A stretch of 22,803 nt of DNA, from IMG/VR virus record IMGVR_UViG_3300027870_000347, positions 1 through 22,803 of that record. One strand, given 5' to 3'. The stretch is from a virus. Both the position numbers and the translations under genes were made by a program. Below, one piece after another: positions 1,551-15,779 of the stretch (position 1 is its first letter; every line of letters begins with the position of its first letter). The notes beneath the pieces are model-generated. The model was not told where the DNA came from. It ran no database searches and was given only the letters and a program-made list of their open reading frames with translations.

Positions 1551-3878
1551 CTACACACTGTCGCCGTTGGCGTCGAAGTTCATGCTGGTGTCATGCAACC
1601 CGCTGAAATTGTCGCCCCGGTCGAAGTCCTCGATGAAGATTTGCCGGGTCGGCCAGCCCTGTTTCGACAGCACCGCCTGGCTGTCACCAAGCAGGAGCTT
1701 GGACCAGAGGTCATAGCTTCCGATGCGGGCGCTTGGGGTCGCGTAGAACGGATCGGTGACAGTCCCGGCCTTGGGCCTGATGTCCCAAAGATCGTTGAGG
1801 TGTGTCGGGACCGCCTCGTGATAGGCGAGGATTTCATGGTGGTCCGACGAACAGATCAGTTTAAGCCCGCCGGTCCCCTCGTTGACCACATAGGCGCTGT
1901 TGGGGGCGGTGATGAAGTTGTCGTTCGAAATGTCGGTCGCCACGATGCGCGGCCATGGCGCCCGGCCAGCCTGACCGTTCGGCCATGGCGCGTTCGGCAG
2001 GATGCTGTCGATCATCGAGTTGTTGTTGGTGGTCAGGATCGAGCCGCCGGGGATCTTGTCGACACCGCGCTGTTGGCCACTGCAAACAAGGTTCTGGTTG
2101 AAACTGTGCGGCCCGGTCGAGGTGGACCCACCCTTCGACTGGTAGAGGGTTTGCGTCGCGTTCGATGAGTAGCCATCGGCATCAGGGTCATAGCTTGCCG
2201 TCCAATAGCCCCGGAAGTTGACGTTGTACCGGAAATTCTGGCGATGGCTGATCGCCCCGTCGTTGAACTGGAAGTCGTCGCCATGCAGCTTCTTGTAGGG
2301 ATGAAAGACCCGGTCGGTGAAGCAGAACTCGCGGAGCAGATCGGAGATCACCGATCCTGTGGCGAGCTTCTGGAAGTTGCCGCCCGAATGACGGCCCATG
2401 AGACCCCGGAAGATCGGGCTGTTGACAGTCCCGTAGGCATCTACGGAGCTGTCGCAGATGTAGAGCGTAGCCGAGTATTGTACCGAACAGTTGGTGCCGC
2501 CGTCGATCCTGATCCCCCGCTGTGTGGTCCCGAGGTTGCCCTGGACCAGATCGAAGGCCCAGCCGCGCGCCACGTTCTTGATCGAATGGCAGTTGGTGCA
2601 GTTCTTGATGACCAGGATCGCTCCGTTGAACAGGCCGGTGTTCGGCGCCCTGATGTCGTTGCGCCACAGGCTGATGTTAGTGCAGCCGTTAAGGGTCGTG
2701 ACGCCATTGATATAGGTCGAACAGGTCGGGTTGCTTTTCCCGAAGGCCAAGGTGCTGCCGTAGACCCCGACCGGCCGGAGGTAAACATTCATCGGCATGT
2801 GGATGTTGTTGATCGTCAAGCCGGGCAGGATCGCGTTGTAGCCCAGCACACGGTCATCGAGCGGTGCCTTGCCCGCTGGCGCAGTCGTCACCGGATCAGC
2901 GGCCCAGGCAGCCAGTGTCGAAAGAATGGCGCTGAGCGAACTGACGACCAGGTCAGGCGTGAAGGTGGTGATCGGCGTCGTGGCGATCACTGTCGTGACT
3001 TGCCACACCCCGCGCGCAACGGCCGCGATCCCGTTGCCCGCCAGATCCTTGATGACACCGGCCGAAAACTCGATGGACACATCGACGCCGTAAGGCAGGG
3101 CGCTTGTCGGCGTGACGATGACCTGCCCGGTGCCAATGGCGATCGATCCCGGCCCGCTCGACGGGGCCGTGGCCACGTCCAGCGTTTCGATCAGCGCATT
3201 CGTCGTCTCGTTCCAGATCTTGATCGTGCCGCTGGTGCCCTTCGCCACCGGTTCGGACATGGTGAAGGTGAAGGCTGACCCAATGGCCACGCTCGACCCC
3301 GACGGCGACATGGCGCTGATCGTGGGGGCGATCACGTCCGTCGTGACCGTCTGGCCCTTGACCTTGATGTGCACCCCGGTTTTCGGATTGGATGGCACGG
3401 TCACGCCATTCACCGTGGTATATGTCCGATAGCTGGTGATCGTCAGGACCGTGACGGTTTGCACGTTGGTCGGATTTGCACCTTCGGTCCCGTTTGCTTG
3501 TGACACCAGGACCACGCCTTCCGGCGTCACGGAAATCGCGAAGGGCGGCTGGTTCAGTTCCGCCGGCCCCGGCGAGTTGAACATGTTGATGGTGCCGAAA
3601 CCGGTGGCGGTGAAGTCATACATCAGATGCCCGGTCGAAATCGGGATCAGGGTTTTTCCGGTGCTTTCGGGATAGCCGGTCATGTCGATCTCCAACTCAA
3701 AGGGCTCTGGGGGTGGGGGCGCTGGCACCACCGGCGGCGGAACCAGTTCGATTTCGGTGAATTTTCCGGTCGCCGGATCGGGCATGAGCGAGATGGCGCC
3801 CGCTTCGACCTTGGCGATGCTGAACGCCCGGTCTGCGACCTTGGCCTTGTTGCTTGCCCAGCGGATCGTGTTGCTCAT
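1551..3878 (-). CDS. Tailspike-like receptor-binding protein with Ig-like and beta-helix domains
   Basis: The 775-aa product is organised as an N-terminal segment (1-45) probably used for attachment, a Pro-rich linker (47-59, PPPVVPAPPPPEP), a beta-rich region (60-180), an Ig-like domain of the SbsA/Big_5 type (about 183-296: APTISAMSPSG, then TFTMSEPV, KDLAGNGI), and a long central part (about 335-690) rich in Asn/Gly turns and short strands typical of right-handed parallel beta-helix spikes. An HGDDFQF motif (532-538) resembles the HxDxxQ motif common in such helices. No catalytic triad can be assigned. It would bind or degrade a surface polysaccharide at the tail tip. GAGGTG, overlapping the previous stop, sits 5 nt before the ATG. 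Composition is a little less GC-rich than the tail genes, as is usual for exchanged host-range genes. Confidence 0.7.
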   Translation of the reverse strand: MSNTIRWASNKAKVADRAFSIAKVEAGAISLMPDPATGKFTEIELVPPPVVPAPPPPEPFELEIDMTGYPESTGKTLIPISTGHLMYDFTATGFGTINMFNSPGPAELNQPPFAISVTPEGVVLVSQANGTEGANPTNVQTVTVLTITSYRTYTTVNGVTVPSNPKTGVHIKVKGQTVTTDVIAPTISAMSPSGSSVAIGSAFTFTMSEPVAKGTSGTIKIWNETTNALIETLDVATAPSSGPGSIAIGTGQVIVTPTSALPYGVDVSIEFSAGVIKDLAGNGIAAVARGVWQVTTVIATTPITTFTPDLVVSSLSAILSTLAAWAADPVTTAPAGKAPLDDRVLGYNAILPGLTINNIHMPMNVYLRPVGVYGSTLAFGKSNPTCSTYINGVTTLNGCTNISLWRNDIRAPNTGLFNGAILVIKNCTNCHSIKNVARGWAFDLVQGNLGTTQRGIRIDGGTNCSVQYSATLYICDSSVDAYGTVNSPIFRGLMGRHSGGNFQKLATGSVISDLLREFCFTDRVFHPYKKLHGDDFQFNDGAISHRQNFRYNVNFRGYWTASYDPDADGYSSNATQTLYQSKGGSTSTGPHSFNQNLVCSGQQRGVDKIPGGSILTTNNNSMIDSILPNAPWPNGQAGRAPWPRIVATDISNDNFITAPNSAYVVNEGTGGLKLICSSDHHEILAYHEAVPTHLNDLWDIRPKAGTVTDPFYATPSARIGSYDLWSKLLLGDSQAVLSKQGWPTRQIFIEDFDRGDNFSGLHDTSMNFDANGDSV

Positions 3879-5906: not shown

Positions 5907-6365
5907 TCATGCGGCCGCCTCGAGTGCCGCGGCGGCGGCAAAAAGCGTGTCGAGCTGGCCGCCGGTCAGGTTCACCCCGCCGGCGTCCTGAAAGTAGGTG
6001 ACGATTTCGGCGGCGGTGCGCCGGAACTTGGCAATGTCGGCATAGCGGGCCTGGTCGGTCGCACTCAGCGCCGGCAGGCGCGCTTGCAGCGCCGACCAGA
6101 CTGTGCCGCCACCGTAGGATGTGGCCCGGCAGGCGTCGTGGAAATAGAGCCGCGCGACGAACGCAACGCCGGTGGCTGGCACCGCCTTGGCGACCGGCTT
6201 GCCGGTTACCCCGTCCGGTTCCAGATCGACGCCGAGCGCCAGGGCCGCCTTCCATTCCGCCTCGGTGATGAGCGTTTTCGGCGAGGGGATGTTCGCCAGC
6301 GGGATCTCGGCCGTGATGTAGAAGCCGTAGGTTCCGTCCCCATTGTTCGCGTAGTAGATTGCCAT
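5907..6365 (-). CDS. Tail-fibre-assembly-like protein
   Basis: The 152-aa product begins MAIYYANNGDGTYGFYITAE, followed by IPSPKTLITEAEWKAAL. This layout (YY near the start, GFY, a Pro-containing strand, then an E-E-type helix) recalls the N-terminus of tail-fibre-assembly chaperones. The C-terminal part (about 100-152) is an Ala-rich helical segment ending in repeated Ala. It starts 1 nt after the fibre gene stop, the usual position for a fibre chaperone. The start is chosen because the longer in-frame extension upstream lies inside the fibre gene and lacks a ribosome site, whereas a G-run precedes this ATG by about 12 nt. The chaperone role is inference. Confidence 0.55.
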   Translation of the reverse strand: MAIYYANNGDGTYGFYITAEIPLANIPSPKTLITEAEWKAALALGVDLEPDGVTGKPVAKAVPATGVAFVARLYFHDACRATSYGGGTVWSALQARLPALSATDQARYADIAKFRRTAAEIVTYFQDAGGVNLTGGQLDTLFAAAAALEAAA

Positions 6366-6366
6366 G

Positions 6367-7671
6367 TCAGTATCCCACCCCCCAAACCCAACCGTTGCGC
6401 GCAGCCGTATCGGCATTCCCTTTTTGAACCGTCACCCCGAACCGCGTGATTGCGGTTGTGCCGATCATGTCGCTCGCGGCGTTATCGACGCCGACAAAGG
6501 TGGCGATACAGGCGTTGGCGAAGGCGGTCGGCCAGGTCACGCTGACGTTCGCCCCGGCGGCTGCGCCAATCGAATACCGGCGCCATTGCAGCTTGAAGGT
6601 GTTGGCACCAATCTTGATTGACAACGCATCGCTGCTGCTGCTGCCGAAGGCGATCCGGTCGCTGAAGAAGTCCAGAAGCGCCTTTGGCGTCACCAGCTTG
6701 TTCAGGATCGCGCCGGCGATGGCCTCGGCACTTGACGCGACGAAGGCGCCCGACGCGGTGTCCGCGCCCAGATCGCCCGTGATCTTCGCCCCGGTGTTCA
6801 GTGTCTCGAACCGCTTGACGTTGTTGAAATAGGCCGAAAAGGCGCCATCGGCCACCGCCTGGAAAAGCAACTCCCCCGCTACCGATTTGAACGTGACCGC
6901 ATCGAAGGCTTCCTCTGATGCGACGCCGGGCAGCCCGCCGCGCAGCAGCTTTTGCAAGGCGTTGTCGAAATACTGATAGGCGTCGCTGTCGTTGCCGAAG
7001 CGCAGCACGCGGCCGTCCCGCAGCTTCACCTCGTTGTCGAAGGTGTTGATGCCGGTGAAGGTCTGGGTGCCGGCGCGGGTCACGTCGGCATTGGCCACGA
7101 CACTGGCCGCGGCCGCCGCGCTGGCCGCCGCGTTCGTTTCGCTGGCGCTGGCCGCGCCGGCCGACGCCGCGGCCGCTGCGGCATTGCCTTGGGCACCAGC
7201 GATGGCCGCAGCCGTCGGCCCGGCCATCGGCTGCAGCTGGTCGTCGAAGATCACGGCGGCGTCGGGCTTGGGCACGAAGGTCGCGGCCGCCGTATCGAGC
7301 CGCAGCGTGTTGGCAAGGATCTGCTCGAGCTCCTGGACTTTCATGGTCAGGATGTCGAGCTGCGCCTCCATGCCCTTTTCGCGGTCGCCCAGCACGCCCA
7401 GCCAGCCCTGCTGGGCTACCGTGTCGCGCGTCAGGAAAATCTGCCCGCCGGCATAGGCCGCCGCGGCGCCGACGCTCAGCGTCAGATTGCCGGTCGTGGT
7501 GCTTTCCGTGGGCGCCACGCTGAAATCCGTGCCCGCCACCAGGTCGGTGCGCACGCCCGCCAGGATCACGGCTGCCCGGACGGCGCCGGTGGAATAGGGC
7601 CAGCCGATCGCATAGGGCCCGGTGCCCATCACGGTATAGTCGCCGTCGGGAATGTCCGGTTCGATCGTCAT
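6367..7671 (-). CDS. Tail fibre, T7 gp17-like N-terminus with gp53-like C-terminal domain
   Basis: The 434-aa protein starts with a T7-tail-fibre-type attachment domain (about 5-130), including the FSVAPTES, ILTRDT-like and LGDREKGMEAQLDILT stretch that ends in a heptad-like helix with LEQILANTLRL. A long Ala/Ser-rich stalk (about 153-195) follows, then beta segments around TFTGINTF and FETLNTGAKITGDLG. The C-terminus (about 350-434) fits the gp53-like fibre tip: FKLQWRRYSIG, VTWPTAFANAC and a terminal GWVWGVGY. It should attach to the tail tube and recognise the host surface. Its ATG overlaps the 826-aa gene by 4 nt and has GGAGG 6 nt upstream. It is short for a complete fibre, which fits the presence of two further adhesins downstream. 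Confidence 0.85.
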   Translation of the reverse strand: MTIEPDIPDGDYTVMGTGPYAIGWPYSTGAVRAAVILAGVRTDLVAGTDFSVAPTESTTTGNLTLSVGAAAAYAGGQIFLTRDTVAQQGWLGVLGDREKGMEAQLDILTMKVQELEQILANTLRLDTAAATFVPKPDAAVIFDDQLQPMAGPTAAAIAGAQGNAAAAAASAGAASASETNAAASAAAAASVVANADVTRAGTQTFTGINTFDNEVKLRDGRVLRFGNDSDAYQYFDNALQKLLRGGLPGVASEEAFDAVTFKSVAGELLFQAVADGAFSAYFNNVKRFETLNTGAKITGDLGADTASGAFVASSAEAIAGAILNKLVTPKALLDFFSDRIAFGSSSSDALSIKIGANTFKLQWRRYSIGAAAGANVSVTWPTAFANACIATFVGVDNAASDMIGTTAITRFGVTVQKGNADTAARNGWVWGVGY

Positions 7672-10148
7672 TGGCTACCTCCGAAGGCGTTGGACAGGTT
7701 GGGCAGGCGGGCACCGGCGGCACCGCGCGCGATGAAGGGCCGGTTGCCATAGTCCTTCTGCATCCGGGAAACCTGCTGGTCCCACTGGGTTTGCGCATGC
7801 GGGTCCAGGAAGGATTGCAGCGTGTCGGCGACCACCCGGTTATAGGCGGCGCGCACATACCAAAGGGTCGACAGGACCGGGAAGTCCTTGCGAACGAGGG
7901 TCGACAGATCGCGGCCGAAACTGCCGCTGGTATGGGCAAAGAGCCCGATCAGATCGCCGGCCAGCGATGCCTGCGGGCCCATCAGCGTGCCCGCCAGCCC
8001 CTGGCCGGTGCGGCTTTCCTCGGATGCGAAGAAATCGCCGAAGATGCCAAGGCCGCCGCCCTGGAACAGCGCGGCTTTCCAGAATACCCCGCGATCCATC
8101 GGGCGGGGGTCATTGCCCTTGGCCAGTTCCTTGAGCTGGATCGACAGCGCCCCCATCAACAGAAGGCCGGTAAAGGTCAGCGCGGCCAGGCCCACCTTGG
8201 TTTCCCAGCCGCCCTTCAGCGCGGCAAACTGGCGATACTGGCCGACCATCAGCGATGCGGTGTAGCCGCGAAACATCATGCCGCCCCGCAACACTTCGCC
8301 GCCGATGGTGCCGGCCGACGTGCCGGCCAGCACGCGGGTGGTCACCTCGAGGTTGCTGGTCGGGATCAGGATGGCGAGCTTTTCCTGCACCGACATCGAC
8401 AGCTTCAGCGCCAGATCGTCCGCCTGGTCGGCGCTGGTCGACCGCTGCATGGCCCGCCAGCTGTGCGGCGTGATCATCGTCGCCCCCGTGCGGGGGTCGC
8501 GGAACAGCGCCGCCGGGTCGCGCAGCCGGTCCCAGTCGCGCGCCGAAATCCCGCGCCGTTCGAAGATCGTGCGGATCCCGTCGTTGATCTGGTCGAAGGG
8601 CAGATGAGCGTTGCGCGCCAGCTCGGCGCCGAACTCCATCTTGACGGCGGTGCGCAGCATGTCGGTCCAGAACGACAGGCCCGACGCGCGCATGGTGATA
8701 TTCGACAGGCGCTGCGAAATGCCGGTGCCGATCATCTGGCCCATGAAGCGGGCGGCGCCGCCGCCGGCATCGGTCAGCGTATCGAAGATGAAGCCGGCGG
8801 TTGCGGCGGTCGCGCGCTCTTCGGGGCTTGCCGCCAGCTTGACCGCCTGGCTCAGCACGTTGGCGGGTTTGAGGCCCATGATATGTGCGCCGACCGACAC
8901 GGTGACCAGATCGGTCGGGGCCGACAGAACCGCCGAGCCGAGATAGGCCGAGCCGAGGAACTGCCGGGTGCCGCGCATCATCGCCGCCGCCGCCTGATCG
9001 CCGATCACATTCTGGCTGCCGTCAAGCCCGTGCAGCATGCCCCGGGCGATGTCGCCGTTCTTTTTGACCGCGTCCTGCAGCGCCTTGTTGCCCGACTTGG
9101 CCGCCTTGATCGTCGCGGTCTGGATGGCGAATTCCAGCCCCGCCGACGGGTTCGGCCCCAGAACCTTCATCAGGGCGATGTCGCGGTTCAGGCCATGGAG
9201 GCCATGCAGCAGCGCCGTGAACGGGTCCGACGCGCCGAATTCGCGGTTATAGTCGCGCCAGCCCTGGCCGGTGGCGAAGTGGAATTCCCGGTGATCGGCG
9301 CGCCGGTTGTAAAGCGCCTTGCCGCCGGCGATCGCGCCCGCCGTCCGGTCGGCCCAGCCGCCGGTGGTGATGTTGCGATACATCGACCGCAGGAAATCCT
9401 CGGTCACCGCCCTGGGCGGGACGATGCCCTTTTCCGTGGCAAAGGGGCGGCCGGTCGATTTGTCGATGATCCGGTCCCAGGCGCCCAGCTTTTCGATCCT
9501 GGCGGCCCAGACATCGAAGCCGGCGCGCGCCACCGCTGCCGGATCGTGGGAATGGGCGACGCCGTAATGGGCCAGTTCGCCGATGTCCATGCCACGGGCG
9601 TTGGCCATCCGGCGCAGGCGGTCCTGTTCCTTCATGACGATCGTGGCCAGATCGCGGGCGGCGGCATCGCCGGTCGCATCGCCGTGCATTTCGTCGATCA
9701 TGTTGTCGAAGCCGGCCTTGTTGGTCGTGCCGCCGATCAGGCTTTGGTGATGGACCTCCAGCATCTGGCGCAGGTTCGCGGCGGTTTCCTGGTTCAGGGC
9801 CTCCTGCAGATAGCGGACATTGGCGCCTTGGAACCCGGCGCTGGGGGAATCTTCCAAGAGCGCCTTCAGCGCCAGGCCGGGGTCGGGTGCGGTTTCGATC
9901 TGATGTTTCAGCAGGCGGAACGCCTCGAGCTGGTTGATGATGGCATGGAAGCGAGCGCGGGCAGACTTTCGGGTTGCCTCTTTCAGGTCTGCTGCCGCGC
10001 TCGCTTCCGCCTGGTGGCGCGTCATGTCGAGATTGCTCTCGTAACGGGCCACTAGCCTGTTGAATTCGTCCTTGGCCGCCTGGGCGCGGTCGGCGGTGAT
10101 TTCGCCCGCGTTCAGGCCCACGTCGATGCAGTCGGCGATCGTGCTCAT
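7668..10148 (-). CDS. Large internal virion / DNA-ejection protein with membrane segment
   Basis: The 826-aa product is mostly helical with a coiled N-terminal region (20-80), a long Ala-rich middle and one strong hydrophobic segment at about 652-671 (TFTGLLLMGALSIQL). After it come KGNDPRPMDRGVFW and a QGGGLGIFGDF stretch (about 678-706) that recur in podovirus ejection proteins. By position it is equivalent to the C-terminal part of T7 gp16, which is ejected into the envelope to form the DNA translocation channel. It overlaps the lysozyme-ddrB protein upstream and the fibre downstream by 4 nt each, with AAAGGTGG ahead of its ATG. No enzymatic domain is visible. The assignment rests on size, gene order and the conserved C-terminal pattern. 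Confidence 0.75.
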   Translation of the reverse strand: MSTIADCIDVGLNAGEITADRAQAAKDEFNRLVARYESNLDMTRHQAEASAAADLKEATRKSARARFHAIINQLEAFRLLKHQIETAPDPGLALKALLEDSPSAGFQGANVRYLQEALNQETAANLRQMLEVHHQSLIGGTTNKAGFDNMIDEMHGDATGDAAARDLATIVMKEQDRLRRMANARGMDIGELAHYGVAHSHDPAAVARAGFDVWAARIEKLGAWDRIIDKSTGRPFATEKGIVPPRAVTEDFLRSMYRNITTGGWADRTAGAIAGGKALYNRRADHREFHFATGQGWRDYNREFGASDPFTALLHGLHGLNRDIALMKVLGPNPSAGLEFAIQTATIKAAKSGNKALQDAVKKNGDIARGMLHGLDGSQNVIGDQAAAAMMRGTRQFLGSAYLGSAVLSAPTDLVTVSVGAHIMGLKPANVLSQAVKLAASPEERATAATAGFIFDTLTDAGGGAARFMGQMIGTGISQRLSNITMRASGLSFWTDMLRTAVKMEFGAELARNAHLPFDQINDGIRTIFERRGISARDWDRLRDPAALFRDPRTGATMITPHSWRAMQRSTSADQADDLALKLSMSVQEKLAILIPTSNLEVTTRVLAGTSAGTIGGEVLRGGMMFRGYTASLMVGQYRQFAALKGGWETKVGLAALTFTGLLLMGALSIQLKELAKGNDPRPMDRGVFWKAALFQGGGLGIFGDFFASEESRTGQGLAGTLMGPQASLAGDLIGLFAHTSGSFGRDLSTLVRKDFPVLSTLWYVRAAYNRVVADTLQSFLDPHAQTQWDQQVSRMQKDYGNRPFIARGAAGARLPNLSNAFGGSQ

Positions 10149-13069
10149 GCGCCACCTTTCGGGTTGCAGGCCGTCAGCAGGTCGACCAGGTTGTGGTCGG
10201 CCTCGATGCCATCAAGGATGTCGGAGACACGTTCTTCGGGGCCGTCGCGGGTAAGCCGTACCGTCAGCTGACCGAAATCGGCGCGGGTGGCTGTCAGATC
10301 GGGGCGGTCGGGCTGAGGGGCGGGCCCTTGGATTGTGGTTTCGTTGGGGTCAGGCTTCGGCGCACCCTGTCCGGTATCGCCCCTGAGCGCGTCAAACGCC
10401 GCCCTGTCGGCCACCTCGGCCTCGGGGCTCTGTGCCCCCTTGGCATAGGCGGTCTCGGGCATGGGCGGGGCTGTTTCAGCCTGCCCGCGCGTGATAACCG
10501 GGCGGGGCGCGCCGATGTCGTCGGGCAGATCGCCGAACACCGCCGGATCGATCTTGCGCAGGATCTCGGGCGTGGTGGCCGCGAACATGGTGTCGGTCGC
10601 GGCGACCTTGCGCGCCTCGCTCGCGTAGCGCTTCAGGAAATCGCCGATCTCGGCCGCGCTGGCAGCCTTGCCGTTCTTCCAGAACTTGTTCCTGACCAGG
10701 GCGACGGTCAGTGGCGACACGACGCCGTCGAACATGTGGACCTGGTCCAGCAGCTCGCGGATCGCGTCGGCCATGCCCAGCCCATCGGTCTGGGCCACGT
10801 CGCGCGCCGCGGCGATCAGGCGCATGGCGTCCAGCACATAGGGGCTGATGTCGGCGTCGGCGCGTACCCGGCCGGCTTCGATGTCGGCCTTGAGCGCGGC
10901 CCATTCCGGTGCGGCGGTTTGCAGCGCGTCCATCAGGCTTTTCAGATCGCCCGCGTCGGTTTCGGTCAGCCGGGCCAGAATGTCGGGTGCATTCCAGGCG
11001 CGCGCGAACATCGCATCGCGCAGCCGCTCGCGGCCGGCCTTGTTCAGTGCGCCGGCGCCATCGAACATCGCGTTGCGTTCCGATGCCGGCAGCGCCGCAA
11101 GCGCCTTGCGCACGAAACCTGCGTTGGCGGGATGGAACAGGTCTTCGGCCGGGTGCAGGTGCGCGATGGTTTCCGGTGTCATCGACCGGGCGGTGGTCTG
11201 GGCAATCTCGGTGGGGGTCATGCGCGCCACGCCGCTGTCCTGGGCATCGACGACAAAGCCCTTGCGCTCGGCCGGCGTCAGATCGGACGTGCGGCGCGCG
11301 ACCAGAACCGGCTGGCGAACATCGGCCGGGATTGGCTGGCCGGTCAGATCCTCGATCGACTTGCGATAGGCGGCGCCCCGATCGGGGAAATTCTCGTAGG
11401 CATGGGTGATCGCGCCGACGCGGCCGTTGCCGCTTTCGATGATATTGTCGGGCCCGACGATCGGCGCGCCGGTCGCCGCATTGGGCCCGGGCATCAGTTG
11501 CGCAGGGTCAAGCCGCGCGGCGGTTTCCTTGATCCAGGCATCAGAATTGGCCCGGCTGCGGTCGCGCGGTTGCAGATCGCCGGTGGCGCGGCGCAGCAGC
11601 GAGGCATCGACCACTTCGTAATTGACATCGATGCGGCGGCCCGATGGCGTGCTGACCTGGCCGTCGCCGGTATAGCCGCGCGAGGTGCGATAGGTGGTGG
11701 CAGGCGCACCATCGTCGATCAGAACGCCAGTCCATTTCGGCACGGTGCCGGCCTCGAACTGGGAATAGACATCGCGGGCATGGGCAACGCGGCGTTCCAG
11801 ATGCGGCACGCCCGGGCGCTCGAAAAGGTTGGAGATCAGCGCCGCCGCTTCTTCAGGTGACTTCGCCGCACGGATTTGCGCCCAGGCGGCAGCCTCGGGA
11901 CCGTCAAGCTCGTGCTTGAGGAAATTGATCTGGGTATCGAGATCGGTCGCCGGCTTGCCGGCCTTTGCCGCGAAATCCTCGAGCGCCGCCTTGCGCGGAC
12001 CGTTCCATTGCAGGAACCCCAGGGCATTGCCGCCATCACCGATCGCGTTGGCATGCAGCGCAGGGCTGCTTTCAACCATGCCGTTGCCGACGAAGCCGGC
12101 CGCGACTTGCGGCTCATAGCCCATTTCCAGCAGGCGCCCATAGACATAGCCCACGCGGTTGGTGCGGGGCGATGCGTTGCCGGCGCTCGAGAAATCGAAA
12201 TCCGACATGGCCAGGGGCCGGCCCGTGCCGTTCTGGCGGGTATTGTCGGCCAGGGTTTGCGCGGTCGACATAGTGTCGGTCAGCGCGTTCTGCGTCGCCT
12301 GGATTTCCGCCTCGTGATCGATCGGATGGATGCCGTCGGGTGCCGTGGCCCGGGCCGCCGCCCGCTTGGCCCAAAGGTATGACGCGGCGCGGACCACACC
12401 ATGCGCGACCGCGCCGAACGCCCCGCCGATCGCGGCTCCTTCGGCCATACGGTTCAGAAGGTTCGGCTTTGGCAGGCCCAACTCGTCGGCGACCTGCTGT
12501 TCGCGCGGCACGTTCAGCCCCTCGGCCAGGCCGTTCAGCAATGCCTCGCCGGCGATGACCCTGACCGCGCCGCCTTCGACCCCGAGCGGCGCAAGCGCCA
12601 GATTGACCGGGTCGACGACGCTGCGGGCGGACGAACCGAGAAACTCGGCAAATCCGCCGCCGGGCCGGTCGAGGATGGTCTGGGCATCGGCGATTTCCGC
12701 CTGGCGCTGGCGGTCGACGTGATCCTGAAACTGGCGCGGATCGAGCGGGTAGCTGCCCCACTTGACCGGATCGGTCGGCACCTCGCGCGATGCGGCGTCG
12801 GTGACCAGCGCGATGTTGGCGGCCAGGGGGTCGGCGAACCTGCGGCCGTTGGTCTGTCGGGTAACGGTTTCGCGGCTGGCCGGCGAAAGCTTGTTCAGCA
12901 TTTCCACCATCAACTTTTGTCGCAACTGGCTATCATAGCCGCCCGTGTCGCTGACGACGGTCTGCTTGCGCCAGGCGGCACCGGCCACATCCCAGAAGGG
13001 CGCCGGGCCGGGCTCGGCGGGCGGCTCCGGCGTGGTGTTCTTGCGCAGGCTGGCGATGTCGATGTTCAT
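10145..13069 (-). CDS. Ejection protein fusing tail lysozyme to a ddrB/ParB-like polyvalent module
   Basis: The 974-aa protein has an N-terminal virion part (1-295) with a Gly/Ala hydrophobic stretch (211-229). A phage tail lysozyme domain follows (about 302-438: NRVGYVYGRLLEMGY, GFVGNGMVESS with E333 the likely catalytic acid, GFLQWNGPRK, FERPG). Next comes a ddrB/ParB-like domain (about 482-630) with the ESGNGRVGAI motif (545-554) where the family has its GGNSR/GNGR loop. The helical region that accompanies ddrB domains comes after that (about 641-820: FHPANAGFVRKAL, LPASERNAMFD, NKAGRERLRDAMFARAW). A Pro-rich disordered part leads to a C-terminal helix. It should open peptidoglycan during DNA entry and deliver the ddrB module into the cell. 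The latter role is inference from the polyvalent-protein concept. Four-nt overlaps join it to both neighbours. Confidence 0.8.
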   Translation of the reverse strand: MNIDIASLRKNTTPEPPAEPGPAPFWDVAGAAWRKQTVVSDTGGYDSQLRQKLMVEMLNKLSPASRETVTRQTNGRRFADPLAANIALVTDAASREVPTDPVKWGSYPLDPRQFQDHVDRQRQAEIADAQTILDRPGGGFAEFLGSSARSVVDPVNLALAPLGVEGGAVRVIAGEALLNGLAEGLNVPREQQVADELGLPKPNLLNRMAEGAAIGGAFGAVAHGVVRAASYLWAKRAAARATAPDGIHPIDHEAEIQATQNALTDTMSTAQTLADNTRQNGTGRPLAMSDFDFSSAGNASPRTNRVGYVYGRLLEMGYEPQVAAGFVGNGMVESSPALHANAIGDGGNALGFLQWNGPRKAALEDFAAKAGKPATDLDTQINFLKHELDGPEAAAWAQIRAAKSPEEAAALISNLFERPGVPHLERRVAHARDVYSQFEAGTVPKWTGVLIDDGAPATTYRTSRGYTGDGQVSTPSGRRIDVNYEVVDASLLRRATGDLQPRDRSRANSDAWIKETAARLDPAQLMPGPNAATGAPIVGPDNIIESGNGRVGAITHAYENFPDRGAAYRKSIEDLTGQPIPADVRQPVLVARRTSDLTPAERKGFVVDAQDSGVARMTPTEIAQTTARSMTPETIAHLHPAEDLFHPANAGFVRKALAALPASERNAMFDGAGALNKAGRERLRDAMFARAWNAPDILARLTETDAGDLKSLMDALQTAAPEWAALKADIEAGRVRADADISPYVLDAMRLIAAARDVAQTDGLGMADAIRELLDQVHMFDGVVSPLTVALVRNKFWKNGKAASAAEIGDFLKRYASEARKVAATDTMFAATTPEILRKIDPAVFGDLPDDIGAPRPVITRGQAETAPPMPETAYAKGAQSPEAEVADRAAFDALRGDTGQGAPKPDPNETTIQGPAPQPDRPDLTATRADFGQLTVRLTRDGPEERVSDILDGIEADHNLVDLLTACNPKGGA

Positions 13070-15237
13070 CGGTGCACCGCCGCGTTCAGCTGCGACAGGC
13101 TGAAGTAATATTCCTTGCCGGTCGGGTCGGTGACGATATGCTCGACGCCCCGTCCGGTCGTTCGGACCAGCAGGTAGGCGTCCTGGCCGATCTTGCCGGC
13201 CGGTTCGATGCGCAGCGTATTCCAGACCGTTTCGGGATCGGCGCCGTTGGCCCCCAGATCGGGATACTGACCAGGCACCAGGCTGGCGGCCTTCAGGCCG
13301 CGGTAGATGTCGGGACTGGGCAGGGCGCCCGTCTGGGGCGGCGTTTGCTTTTGGCCGGTATATGTGGGCCAGCTCGGTGTTTCGGAAAGATCGCTGAAGC
13401 CGCTCAGCTGCAGGCCGACGATGTTGACCGCATCGTTCACCTCTGTCGCGGCGATCCCGCGCGGCAGGGCGACCGGAACCCCCCGAATGTCTTGCACCCC
13501 GCCGATCGTGTAGTTGCCGCTGCCATCCCGGCTCGCGCCCTGCGCCACCGAAATCGCATCCATCAGCTTGGTGCGCGCCGGGCCGTCGTTGAAATATCCG
13601 GCCTTGATGTCGTCGGGGCTGATCGTGCCCATGTCATCGGCATAGATGGCCTCGGCCGCTTGCTGCACCCGGGCGGCGGCTTCGGGGTCGGCGGCATAGG
13701 CGTCGTGGGTCATCTCGTTGAAAAGCGCCTGGCGGGCGGTCTTGGCCGGCGCCGCCGCGACATCGCTGGCCAGCTTCTGCTCGCCGCGCAGGATCGGCAT
13801 GACCGTGGCCGGATCGGCGCCCTGGCCCAGCAGATCGACTGCCTGCTGAAACGCCGGCGTGGCATCGGCCGTCTTGGCGATGCCGATGGCCTTGTCCTGG
13901 CCGCCCCGCGCCAAGGCGATCGCCATGTCCAGCCGCTGCCCCGCATCGGCGGTTTTCGCCAGCAACGGTTTCAGCGCCGCCTTGTCGGCATCCGACAGAT
14001 AGGCGGGGGCCGTCATGTGGCCGGTCTCAACCAGGTGATCGGTGCGCGCGATGCGGCCCTGCAGGCTTTTGGCGGCGGCATCCGGGCTTGACAGGTCCAG
14101 CGCCGGCAGCATGTCGGGCATGGCCGATTGCCAGAACCCCTGCGGATCGGTCGTCATCGCCTTTTTCACATCGGCGATGCGGCCGTCGAGGTAGGTCCGT
14201 TTATCCGTCTCCCAGGGCTTGTTGACCGGGACCGCCGCCAGCGTGTCGCGTTCCTTTTGCAGCTCGGCCAGCGACATGCGGTTGATGTTCTTGCCGTCGG
14301 CCTGGAGCCCGATCGCGCCTCGGATGCGGGCGACCTCGTCGGGCAGGGCGGCCGCGACTGCGGGATCCTTCAGCTTGTCGGCCCCGGCCCAAAGGCCGCC
14401 CTTTTCGATGACGGCCAGCCCGTCGGCCAGATCGGATTTCCAGCTCGCGACCTGCTCTTTCGCCGCCGCCTTTGCCTCATCGGCCGCGGCCTTGGTGCGA
14501 CGGTCCAATTCATTATGCGCCTTGGCCTCATAGCTCGCCCGATCTTCGGGGGTGAGGTTCGTCAGCTCCTTGGCATCGAGATGGTCCAGCAGCCCCTGCG
14601 GATCGTCCTGCAACATGCGGAAGGCGGCATTCGCATCGCCATCCTGGCGGAACTTCTGGCCCTCGCGCGCCGCCTGCTCGGGCGACATGACGCCGGATTT
14701 GACCCGCTCGGACAGGCGCTGGTCGTTCTGGCGGTAGATCTCGTCGCGGGTGCCCGGATCGCTGACCGCCGCCTGCTGGGCCGCGACGGCCCTGTATTGG
14801 ATGTCGCTGGCCATCGTCTGGCTGTGGCGCAGCGCGATGACGTTGGTGCCGAGCGCGAACGCATGCTTTTGGGCCAGATCGTCGAACCCGAGCGCGAAGC
14901 GCTGCGCGATCTTGGGATCGACGCGCGGCCGGCCGGTGTCGGTCTGGCCGGTCAGATAGCTTTGCTTCAGATCCGTGATGTCCTTGGCCCAGCCGGCATC
15001 GATCGCGTTGGGGTCGCCCATGTTTTCATATTTCAGGCGCAGGTTGCCCATGTCGCGGGTCATGTCGACCTGCAGCTGGCTCATCTCGAGGTCGAGCCGC
15101 TGGCCCTCGATCTTGTCGCCAAAGCCCTTGATCGCATCGCCGAAGGCCGAAATGACATTGCCGGTCTGCGATGTCTCGAACTGCGGCTGCGCGGCGCGGC
15201 CGGCCGACACGCCGGCGGTGGGGACGGTCAGGCTCAT
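13066..15237 (-). CDS. Internal virion protein, T7 gp15-like
   Basis: The 723-aa product is Ala/Asp/Lys-rich and almost entirely helical, with no membrane segment or enzyme motif. Its size is close to T7 gp15 (about 750 aa), and it follows the gp14-like gene and precedes the lysozyme-bearing ejection protein, the T7 gene 14-15-16 order. The N-terminus (AFGDAIKGFGDKIEGQRLDLEMSQ) begins like many gp15-type proteins, with a Gly-rich amphipathic helix leading into a coiled coil. These proteins are held in the capsid around the portal and form the periplasmic part of the ejection channel. The start overlaps the previous stop by 4 nt with GGAG about 8 nt upstream. Confidence 0.75.
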   Translation of the reverse strand: MSLTVPTAGVSAGRAAQPQFETSQTGNVISAFGDAIKGFGDKIEGQRLDLEMSQLQVDMTRDMGNLRLKYENMGDPNAIDAGWAKDITDLKQSYLTGQTDTGRPRVDPKIAQRFALGFDDLAQKHAFALGTNVIALRHSQTMASDIQYRAVAAQQAAVSDPGTRDEIYRQNDQRLSERVKSGVMSPEQAAREGQKFRQDGDANAAFRMLQDDPQGLLDHLDAKELTNLTPEDRASYEAKAHNELDRRTKAAADEAKAAAKEQVASWKSDLADGLAVIEKGGLWAGADKLKDPAVAAALPDEVARIRGAIGLQADGKNINRMSLAELQKERDTLAAVPVNKPWETDKRTYLDGRIADVKKAMTTDPQGFWQSAMPDMLPALDLSSPDAAAKSLQGRIARTDHLVETGHMTAPAYLSDADKAALKPLLAKTADAGQRLDMAIALARGGQDKAIGIAKTADATPAFQQAVDLLGQGADPATVMPILRGEQKLASDVAAAPAKTARQALFNEMTHDAYAADPEAAARVQQAAEAIYADDMGTISPDDIKAGYFNDGPARTKLMDAISVAQGASRDGSGNYTIGGVQDIRGVPVALPRGIAATEVNDAVNIVGLQLSGFSDLSETPSWPTYTGQKQTPPQTGALPSPDIYRGLKAASLVPGQYPDLGANGADPETVWNTLRIEPAGKIGQDAYLLVRTTGRGVEHIVTDPTGKEYYFSLSQLNAAVHR

Positions 15238-15779
15238 GTTCCGAGCTCCGGCCAGATGTCGGGCGCGCCGGTGAGGAACTTGCCGGCGGCGCTGACCGTG
15301 CCGTTCAGCAGCGACGTTGTGGCCCGCGCATTGGCGATCTTTTCGCTCGATGTCAGTTCGCGCTGTGTTGCATCACCTTTCGACCGCACCGACTGGCTGG
15401 CAAAGCTCATCTCCTGCGCGGCGGTTTGCCCCAGCAGAACGGCGGTGGGGCTGTCAAGGCTGATCCCGCGGGCGATCAACTCGCCTGCCTGGCGGCGCAT
15501 CGCGGTGCGGAATTGCAGCCGCGTGCGCTGATCCTCGGTCGCGGTCAACTGCGCCTCGGTGACCTTCTGGTCGGCGATGGCCCGCGCCTGGGCCTTGGCG
15601 GTTTGATAGCCGGATATGCCTTGCGCCAGCGCGCCGCCGACCGATAGCGCCAACCCGAGCCCCTGGAAGATGCTGCCGGTGGTCGCGGCCGCTGCGGTCG
15701 CGCCAGCCGCAGCAGTTGCCCCGGCTGCCGTGGCGGCACCGGTGCCCAGAAGCGGGGCCAGAAATGCCGGGTTGCACAT
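15234..15779 (-). CDS. Internal virion protein, T7 gp14-like
   Basis: The 181-aa protein begins with MCNPAF, then an Ala/Gly/Thr-rich hydrophobic region (about 10-58), then a helical coiled-coil stretch (58-110) and a segment RGISLDSPTAVLLGQTA. That layout, an N-terminal hydrophobic domain followed by a helical tail in a protein of about 180-200 aa directly before a gp15-size gene, matches T7 gp14-like proteins that insert in the outer membrane as the first ejected pore component. It overlaps the tail tubular B stop by one base (TAATG), with a GAGGGGGG run about 6 nt before the ATG. Confidence 0.75.
   Translation of the reverse strand: MCNPAFLAPLLGTGAATAAGATAAAGATAAAATTGSIFQGLGLALSVGGALAQGISGYQTAKAQARAIADQKVTEAQLTATEDQRTRLQFRTAMRRQAGELIARGISLDSPTAVLLGQTAAQEMSFASQSVRSKGDATQRELTSSEKIANARATTSLLNGTVSAAGKFLTGAPDIWPELGT

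Follow-up and report, generated by a model that had tools for sequence, protein, structure and literature searches.

Can a single phage protein first open the cell wall and then act inside the host? The question is raised by a 974-residue protein encoded in the window, the whole 22.8-kb IMG/VR virus fragment analysed here. The initial annotation had seen in it a lysozyme-type domain followed by a ddrB-like domain, at the position of T7 gene 16. The reading frame is indeed present and begins with ATG; it lies on the minus strand, a detail missing from that annotation.

The gene overlaps both of its neighbours by four nucleotides (13066-13069 and 10145-10148 by ORF coordinates). As overlaps of this length link a run of five genes between 15779 and 6367, it belongs to a tightly coupled late operon, in the order tail tubular proteins, gp14-like, gp15-position, 974-residue protein, gp17-like (phrog_684) and tail fibre. 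Genes of gp14-like and gp15-like type precede its homologue in every close relative (26/26). The gp17-like gene directly follows in 25 of these, the remaining contig ending there, and in 10 more distant relatives as well. The gene is flanked by gp14/gp15-like genes on one side and by a gp17-like pilot gene on the other. Its assignment to the T7 gene-16 position holds only approximately: the closest synteny is with epsilon15 (gp15-like, 974-residue protein, gp17-like), and two genes occupy the place of T7's single gene 16. Near the tail-fibre genes, the window also encodes a 775-residue protein with a Big_5 Ig-like domain (1551-3878), possibly receptor-binding. We rejected a chimeric assembly, since the same layout recurs in about 25 contigs and residues 1-232 are found on another contig at 100% identity.

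Table 1 Features of the ejection protein and of neighbouring genes, in window positions.
Feature	Position	Strand	Evidence
974-aa ejection protein gene (P0001)	10145..13069	-	ORF call; ATG start; 4-nt overlaps with both neighbours
gp15-position internal virion protein, upstream	13066..15237	-	weak profile match, E 0.007; synteny kept in all 26 close relatives
gp14-like internal virion protein (phrog_418)	15234..15779	-	profile match, E 9.7e-10
epsilon15 gp17-like virion structural/pilot protein (phrog_684), downstream	7668..10148	-	profile match, E 3.3e-124
T7 gp16-family segment, residues 138-252 (phrog_342 positions 310-416)	12314..12658	-	profile matches
Phage_lysozyme2 domain (phi29 gp13 type), residues 300-443	11741..12172	-	Pfam and predicted structure
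E333 codon, aligned with gp13 E45	12071..12073	-	sequence alignment
ddrB-ParB domain (ParB/Srx fold), residues 476-615	11225..11644	-	Pfam and predicted structure
ESGNGR motif, residues 545-550	11420..11437	-	five of six positions in 61/61 homologues, G549 in 60/61
Helical region accompanying ddrB-ParB, residues 616-835	10565..11224	-	predicted structure; found in P1 DdrB and other relatives
Conserved C-terminal tail LxDxxxAD...C, residues 933-974	10148..10273	-	conserved in close relatives; profile also finds L014

The lysozyme-type domain, initially placed at about residues 302-438 with E333, is recovered both by profile and by fold. Pfam family PF18013 (Phage_lysozyme2) matches residues 307-438 with 105.9 bits (E 2.6e-30); this match and the PF18763 match described below each exceed the curated cut-off by more than 75 bits. 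In the predicted structure, residues 300-443 superpose on gp13 of phage phi29 (3csq) with a Z-score of 13.8 and an rmsd of 2.2 Å over 126 residues, at 20% identity; the mean pLDDT of the full-length model is 71. E333 aligns with gp13 E45, which we take to be the catalytic residue, and the glutamate is kept in all six Phage_lysozyme2 members. With profile, fold and active-site glutamate in agreement, we assign residues 300-443 to the phi29 gp13 type of lysozyme and predict a muralytic activity. The phi29 protein is a tail protein in a phage of Gram-positive hosts, whereas here the domain is placed inside an internal ejection protein. The window has separate lysis genes, at 306-917 and 1139-1480, for a GH108 endolysin that carries a peptidoglycan-binding domain and for a holin of LydA type; lysis is therefore probably not the task of the lysozyme in the ejection protein.

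Homology to T7 gp16 at the sequence level extends over residues 138-252 only. Nine of 17 homologous N-termini match phrog_342, the T7 gp16 family, with a best E-value of 5e-9. Residues 155-173 and 208-226 are hydrophobic, and the hydrophobic stretches of T7 gp16 lie at about 330-412. The same N-terminal profile also matches SI2, VP5 and the protein of contig L014, all devoid of DdrB; in annotated phages, gp16-position proteins without DdrB are those of SI2 and VP5 and gp16 of epsilon15. Both the lysozyme and the DdrB part are C-terminal of the hydrophobic segment; what lies between the two is a short linker, modelled at low confidence and free of membrane segments.

At the opposite end, the C-terminal tail contains a near-invariant cysteine in close relatives. 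The tail profile also matches L014 (E 2e-4), which was left out of profile building. This LDDxDAD tail with its cysteine occurs on gp16-position proteins of otherwise differing content, and the C-terminal ends of epsilon15 gp16, SPN1S and YeP5 look similar by eye only. It is a possible docking or ejection signal.

The central part of the protein confirms the ddrB-like domain that had been read at residues 482-630 with GNGR at 547-550. A PF18763 (ddrB-ParB) match covers residues 476-593 (110 bits, E 1e-31, with a cut-off of 27.6), so that the profile expected in this stretch is found, and the motif occupies the residues given for it. Residues Q500, R502, R504, P536, D541, N542, E545, S546, G547, N548 and R550 are invariant in 61 homologues, as are P587, R593, R602 and E621. 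We modelled residues 463-835 from these homologues, with a mean pLDDT of 88.5. All of the top four PDB matches found by Foldseek are N-domains of ParB proteins, two with bound nucleotide. By VIA-align, ParB, Noc, KorB and PadC score Z 7.4-9.3, followed by sulfiredoxins at Z 5-6; the nucleotide-bound ParB and Noc reach Z 9.0-9.3 (rmsd 2.2-2.5 Å over 90-93 residues), and sulfiredoxin with ATP comes next. The best of these matches cover model residues 21-153, i.e. residues 483-615 of the protein, and involve the N-terminal domain only. The pocket arginine and the conserved Asp/Asn expected with a ParB/Srx fold are represented by R550, D541 and N542, each present in 61/61 homologues.

When the DdrB module was compared profile to profile with canonical ParB, no match emerged at the sequence level; of the two ParB sets used, parb.aln is the informative one, as parb2 consisted in part of wrong-frame ORFs. 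A PDB profile search with the module gave no match either. The equivalence of the pocket with that of ParB is hence based on fold and topology. By this topology, ESGNGR would sit at the turn of ParB box II, and the box III asparagine of ParB would correspond to glutamine Q610. ParB-fold proteins bind CTP, ATP or GTP, and their specificity is not reliably predictable from sequence (PMC12704722).

The helical region proposed for residues 641-820 is also recognized: with high confidence, residues 616-835 are predicted to be almost wholly helical. It has no confident structural counterpart, its matches being no better than chance among helical bundles. Neither an HTH nor a dimerisation domain could be recognised in the module, nor any ParA among the genes scanned in the window, which is a contig fragment. 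Nearly all of the 61 homologues have a net acidic module, with medians of -4 and -5 for its two parts, which speaks against simple DNA binding or a simple DNA clamp. In four close homologue pairs, the DdrB-ParB part has an omega of 0.03-0.04 and the hydrolase slot one of 0.03-0.06, indicating strong purifying selection on both. In Escherichia phage vB_EcoM_APEC (L009:2946-5555), a DdrB-ParB domain has GSVR in place of GNGR and lacks most of the helical region; it is possibly a decayed module.

Relatives were gathered by a DdrB motif search, with 480 scanned viral contigs encoding them, of which the best 80 were kept; the constancy of DdrB in the family is therefore partly by construction. A close-relative scan with L038 returned its own contig only. 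Homologues occur in the Rhodobacteraceae genomes of Palleronia, Seohaeicola, Cribrihabitans and Oceanicola, including prophage loci of Palleronia pelagia, Seohaeicola zhoushanensis and Cribrihabitans marinus (L100-L102), and more distantly in Acinetobacter. The Rhodobacteraceae relatives make an alphaproteobacterial host likely.

The slot preceding DdrB is far from constant. Phage_lysozyme2 fills it in 6 of 31 cases, and elsewhere SLT, a GESGGDYNALF-type domain or further types are found. When the slot types are placed on a tree of the DdrB modules from 22 phages, they change at least nine times, about as often as with shuffled labels: the wall-hydrolase slot is swapped almost freely among the phages of this group. 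The GESGGDYNALF-type domain (L025:4473-5000 and relatives, alignment A7) is conserved around GIFxGESGGDYNALFG ... TPMGAYQIVG. It has no Pfam match, no clear PDB match and a weak match to a PHROG endolysin (6e-5), and is a candidate for an unclassified wall hydrolase. The ejection protein of L072 is near-identical to those of L073 and L074, with a sharply diverged segment before DdrB (dN 0.57 vs 0.01-0.02 elsewhere), which suggests local exchange or diversification of cargo.

The same chassis also carries other cargo: zeta toxin in 5/31 cases, ART in 2/31 and PBECR1 in 1/31. Zeta toxin occupies the slot before DdrB in L079, while L020 and L022 have a zeta-toxin-like kinase C-terminal of DdrB (e.g. 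L022:6399-7418, E 2.8e-19). A zeta-toxin-like kinase domain is present in the ejection protein of L088 together with a weak ART-PolyVal match. Between DdrB and the C-terminal tail, L023 has a RelA/SpoT-like stretch (6000-7220) below the Pfam threshold (E 0.0033), and L034 and L035 have one by alignment only.

The combination of lysozyme and DdrB-ParB is real and widespread, and was already published in 2017: Iyer et al. (PMC5512222) described a lysozyme fused to DdrB-like ParB in polyvalent proteins of Acinetobacter prophages and proposed injection and wall breaching. As here, these proteins are products of late phage genes. Such a layout also occurs in the epsilon15 gp16 position of Acinetobacter phages TPWB-05 and MD-2021a and of Alcaligenes phage Piluca, whose proteins are about 25-27% identical to the 974-residue protein. 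They have an SLT-type transglycosylase and another N-terminus, in place of the phi29-gp13-type lysozyme and T7-gp16-type segment seen here. What the window protein adds is a membrane segment of T7 gp16 type, together with a lysozyme family unlike that of the annotated relatives identified in this analysis.

Two further systems serve as references. P1 DdrB shares the module of about 350 residues, DdrB-ParB and helices alike, at 28% identity. It belongs to the head of the virion, where 39 unique peptides represent it (PMC9024508), and is ejected together with the Dar system; the Dar proteins, which are co-ejected, protect DNA against type I restriction (PMC12810830). Contrary to the protein studied here, DdrB of this myophage has neither a lysozyme nor an N-terminal membrane segment, and a C-terminal metallopeptidase domain is reported for it. 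T7 gp16 (phrog_342), for which no DdrB module is reported, is likewise an ejection protein with a wall hydrolase and shares the homologous hydrophobic segment; its transglycosylase is periplasmic, and its large C-terminal part is presumed to enter the cytoplasm and bind DNA (PMC8954989). Its order is hydrolase, membrane segment, C-terminal domain, whereas here the membrane segment comes first, then the hydrolase and DdrB.

We now propose that the 974-residue protein serves an epsilon15/T7-like podophage as ejection (pilot) protein, bringing an ejected lysozyme and an NTP-binding DdrB module of early infection, with an exchangeable cassette; we give this reading a probability of about 60%. Homology shows its parts to be an N-terminal chassis with the hydrophobic segment of T7 gp16, a gp13-type lysozyme, a DdrB-type module of ParB/sulfiredoxin fold with its helices, and a C-terminal tail typical of the position. 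The protein would be packaged in the head and expelled along with the genome. The lysozyme would cut peptidoglycan locally during passage of the ejectosome through the periplasm, and the DdrB part would reach the cytoplasm with the DNA or before it. There it may function as an NTP-gated module of early infection, for which NTP sensing or hydrolysis and binding of a protein partner seem more likely than DNA cutting; the partner could be a defence enzyme or a co-delivered protein. Given the domain order, this would require sequential action by one molecule or a division of labour among copies.

The original proposal, that the protein opens the wall and then acts inside, is plausible. The ejection operon, the intact domains under purifying selection, the published precedents and the toxin and ART cargo all favour it, and delivery gains strength from the latter, as these domains have no evident use outside the cytoplasm and ride on the same chassis. 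Its simple version fares less well. Since the membrane-type segment comes before both the lysozyme and DdrB, but after the hydrolase in T7, a T7-like topology with periplasmic lysozyme and cytoplasmic C-terminus is not simply implied, which weakens the case for delivery; the acidic module without recognisable HTH also counts against this version.

The module may instead have no task in the host cell and serve assembly, docking this or partner ejection proteins into the capsid. The documented role of P1 DdrB, which is to aid the incorporation of DarB into the head (PMC9024508; PMC12810830), needs no host activity and argues against our preferred reading; the acidity of the module and its encoding beside other ejection proteins also fit assembly. 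Nevertheless, an invariant NTP-type pocket exceeds the needs of a docking surface, and the module is accompanied in relatives by toxin-type domains that act in cells. Moreover, SI2, VP5 and L014 share the N-terminus without DdrB, so the module is dispensable for assembly as such. We consider this explanation rather unlikely.

It is also conceivable, if unlikely, that DdrB acts in the ejectosome itself, as an NTP-gated switch or clamp: nucleotide met in the cytoplasm would close the module on DNA or on a partner and commit the genome to entry. If true, a ParB-type NTPase would here serve genome delivery instead of partition. Another unlikely reading is a DNA clamp, in which the NTP-bound ParB-fold module would close on the entering genome and ratchet or protect it where the ejectosome ends in the cytoplasm. 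In its favour, ParB, Noc and KorB, all CTP-dependent sliding clamps, are among the nearest folds, the N-terminal segment resembles that of T7 gp16, and the C-terminal part of T7 gp16 is reported to bind DNA and is a candidate clamp (PMC8954989). Against it stand the net acidity of both module parts, the lack of a recognised HTH or dimerisation domain, helices that resemble no known structure with confidence, and the probable replacement of the box III asparagine by Q610. Finally, a nuclease under NTP control, which would nick DNA of the host or of rivals or help early replication, was among the suggestions of Iyer et al. 2017 but is highly improbable: DNA nicking is reported for some ParB-superfamily proteins (summarised in PMC5512222) and acidic residues D541, E545 and E621 are conserved, but the module is net acidic, a virion-borne nuclease would endanger the phage's own DNA, and the same authors favour NTP sensing or degradation.

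In a literature search that was non-exhaustive we found no earlier description of the free exchange of the hydrolase cassette or of the shared tail. Altogether, the podophage ejection protein appears as a chassis made of membrane segment, cargo and tail, on which the wall-cutting cassette is swapped and the module of nucleotide-binding type is kept. Its homologues in Rhodobacteraceae genomes provide material for probing the function of DdrB-ParB, a question that dates from the description of P1 DdrB.
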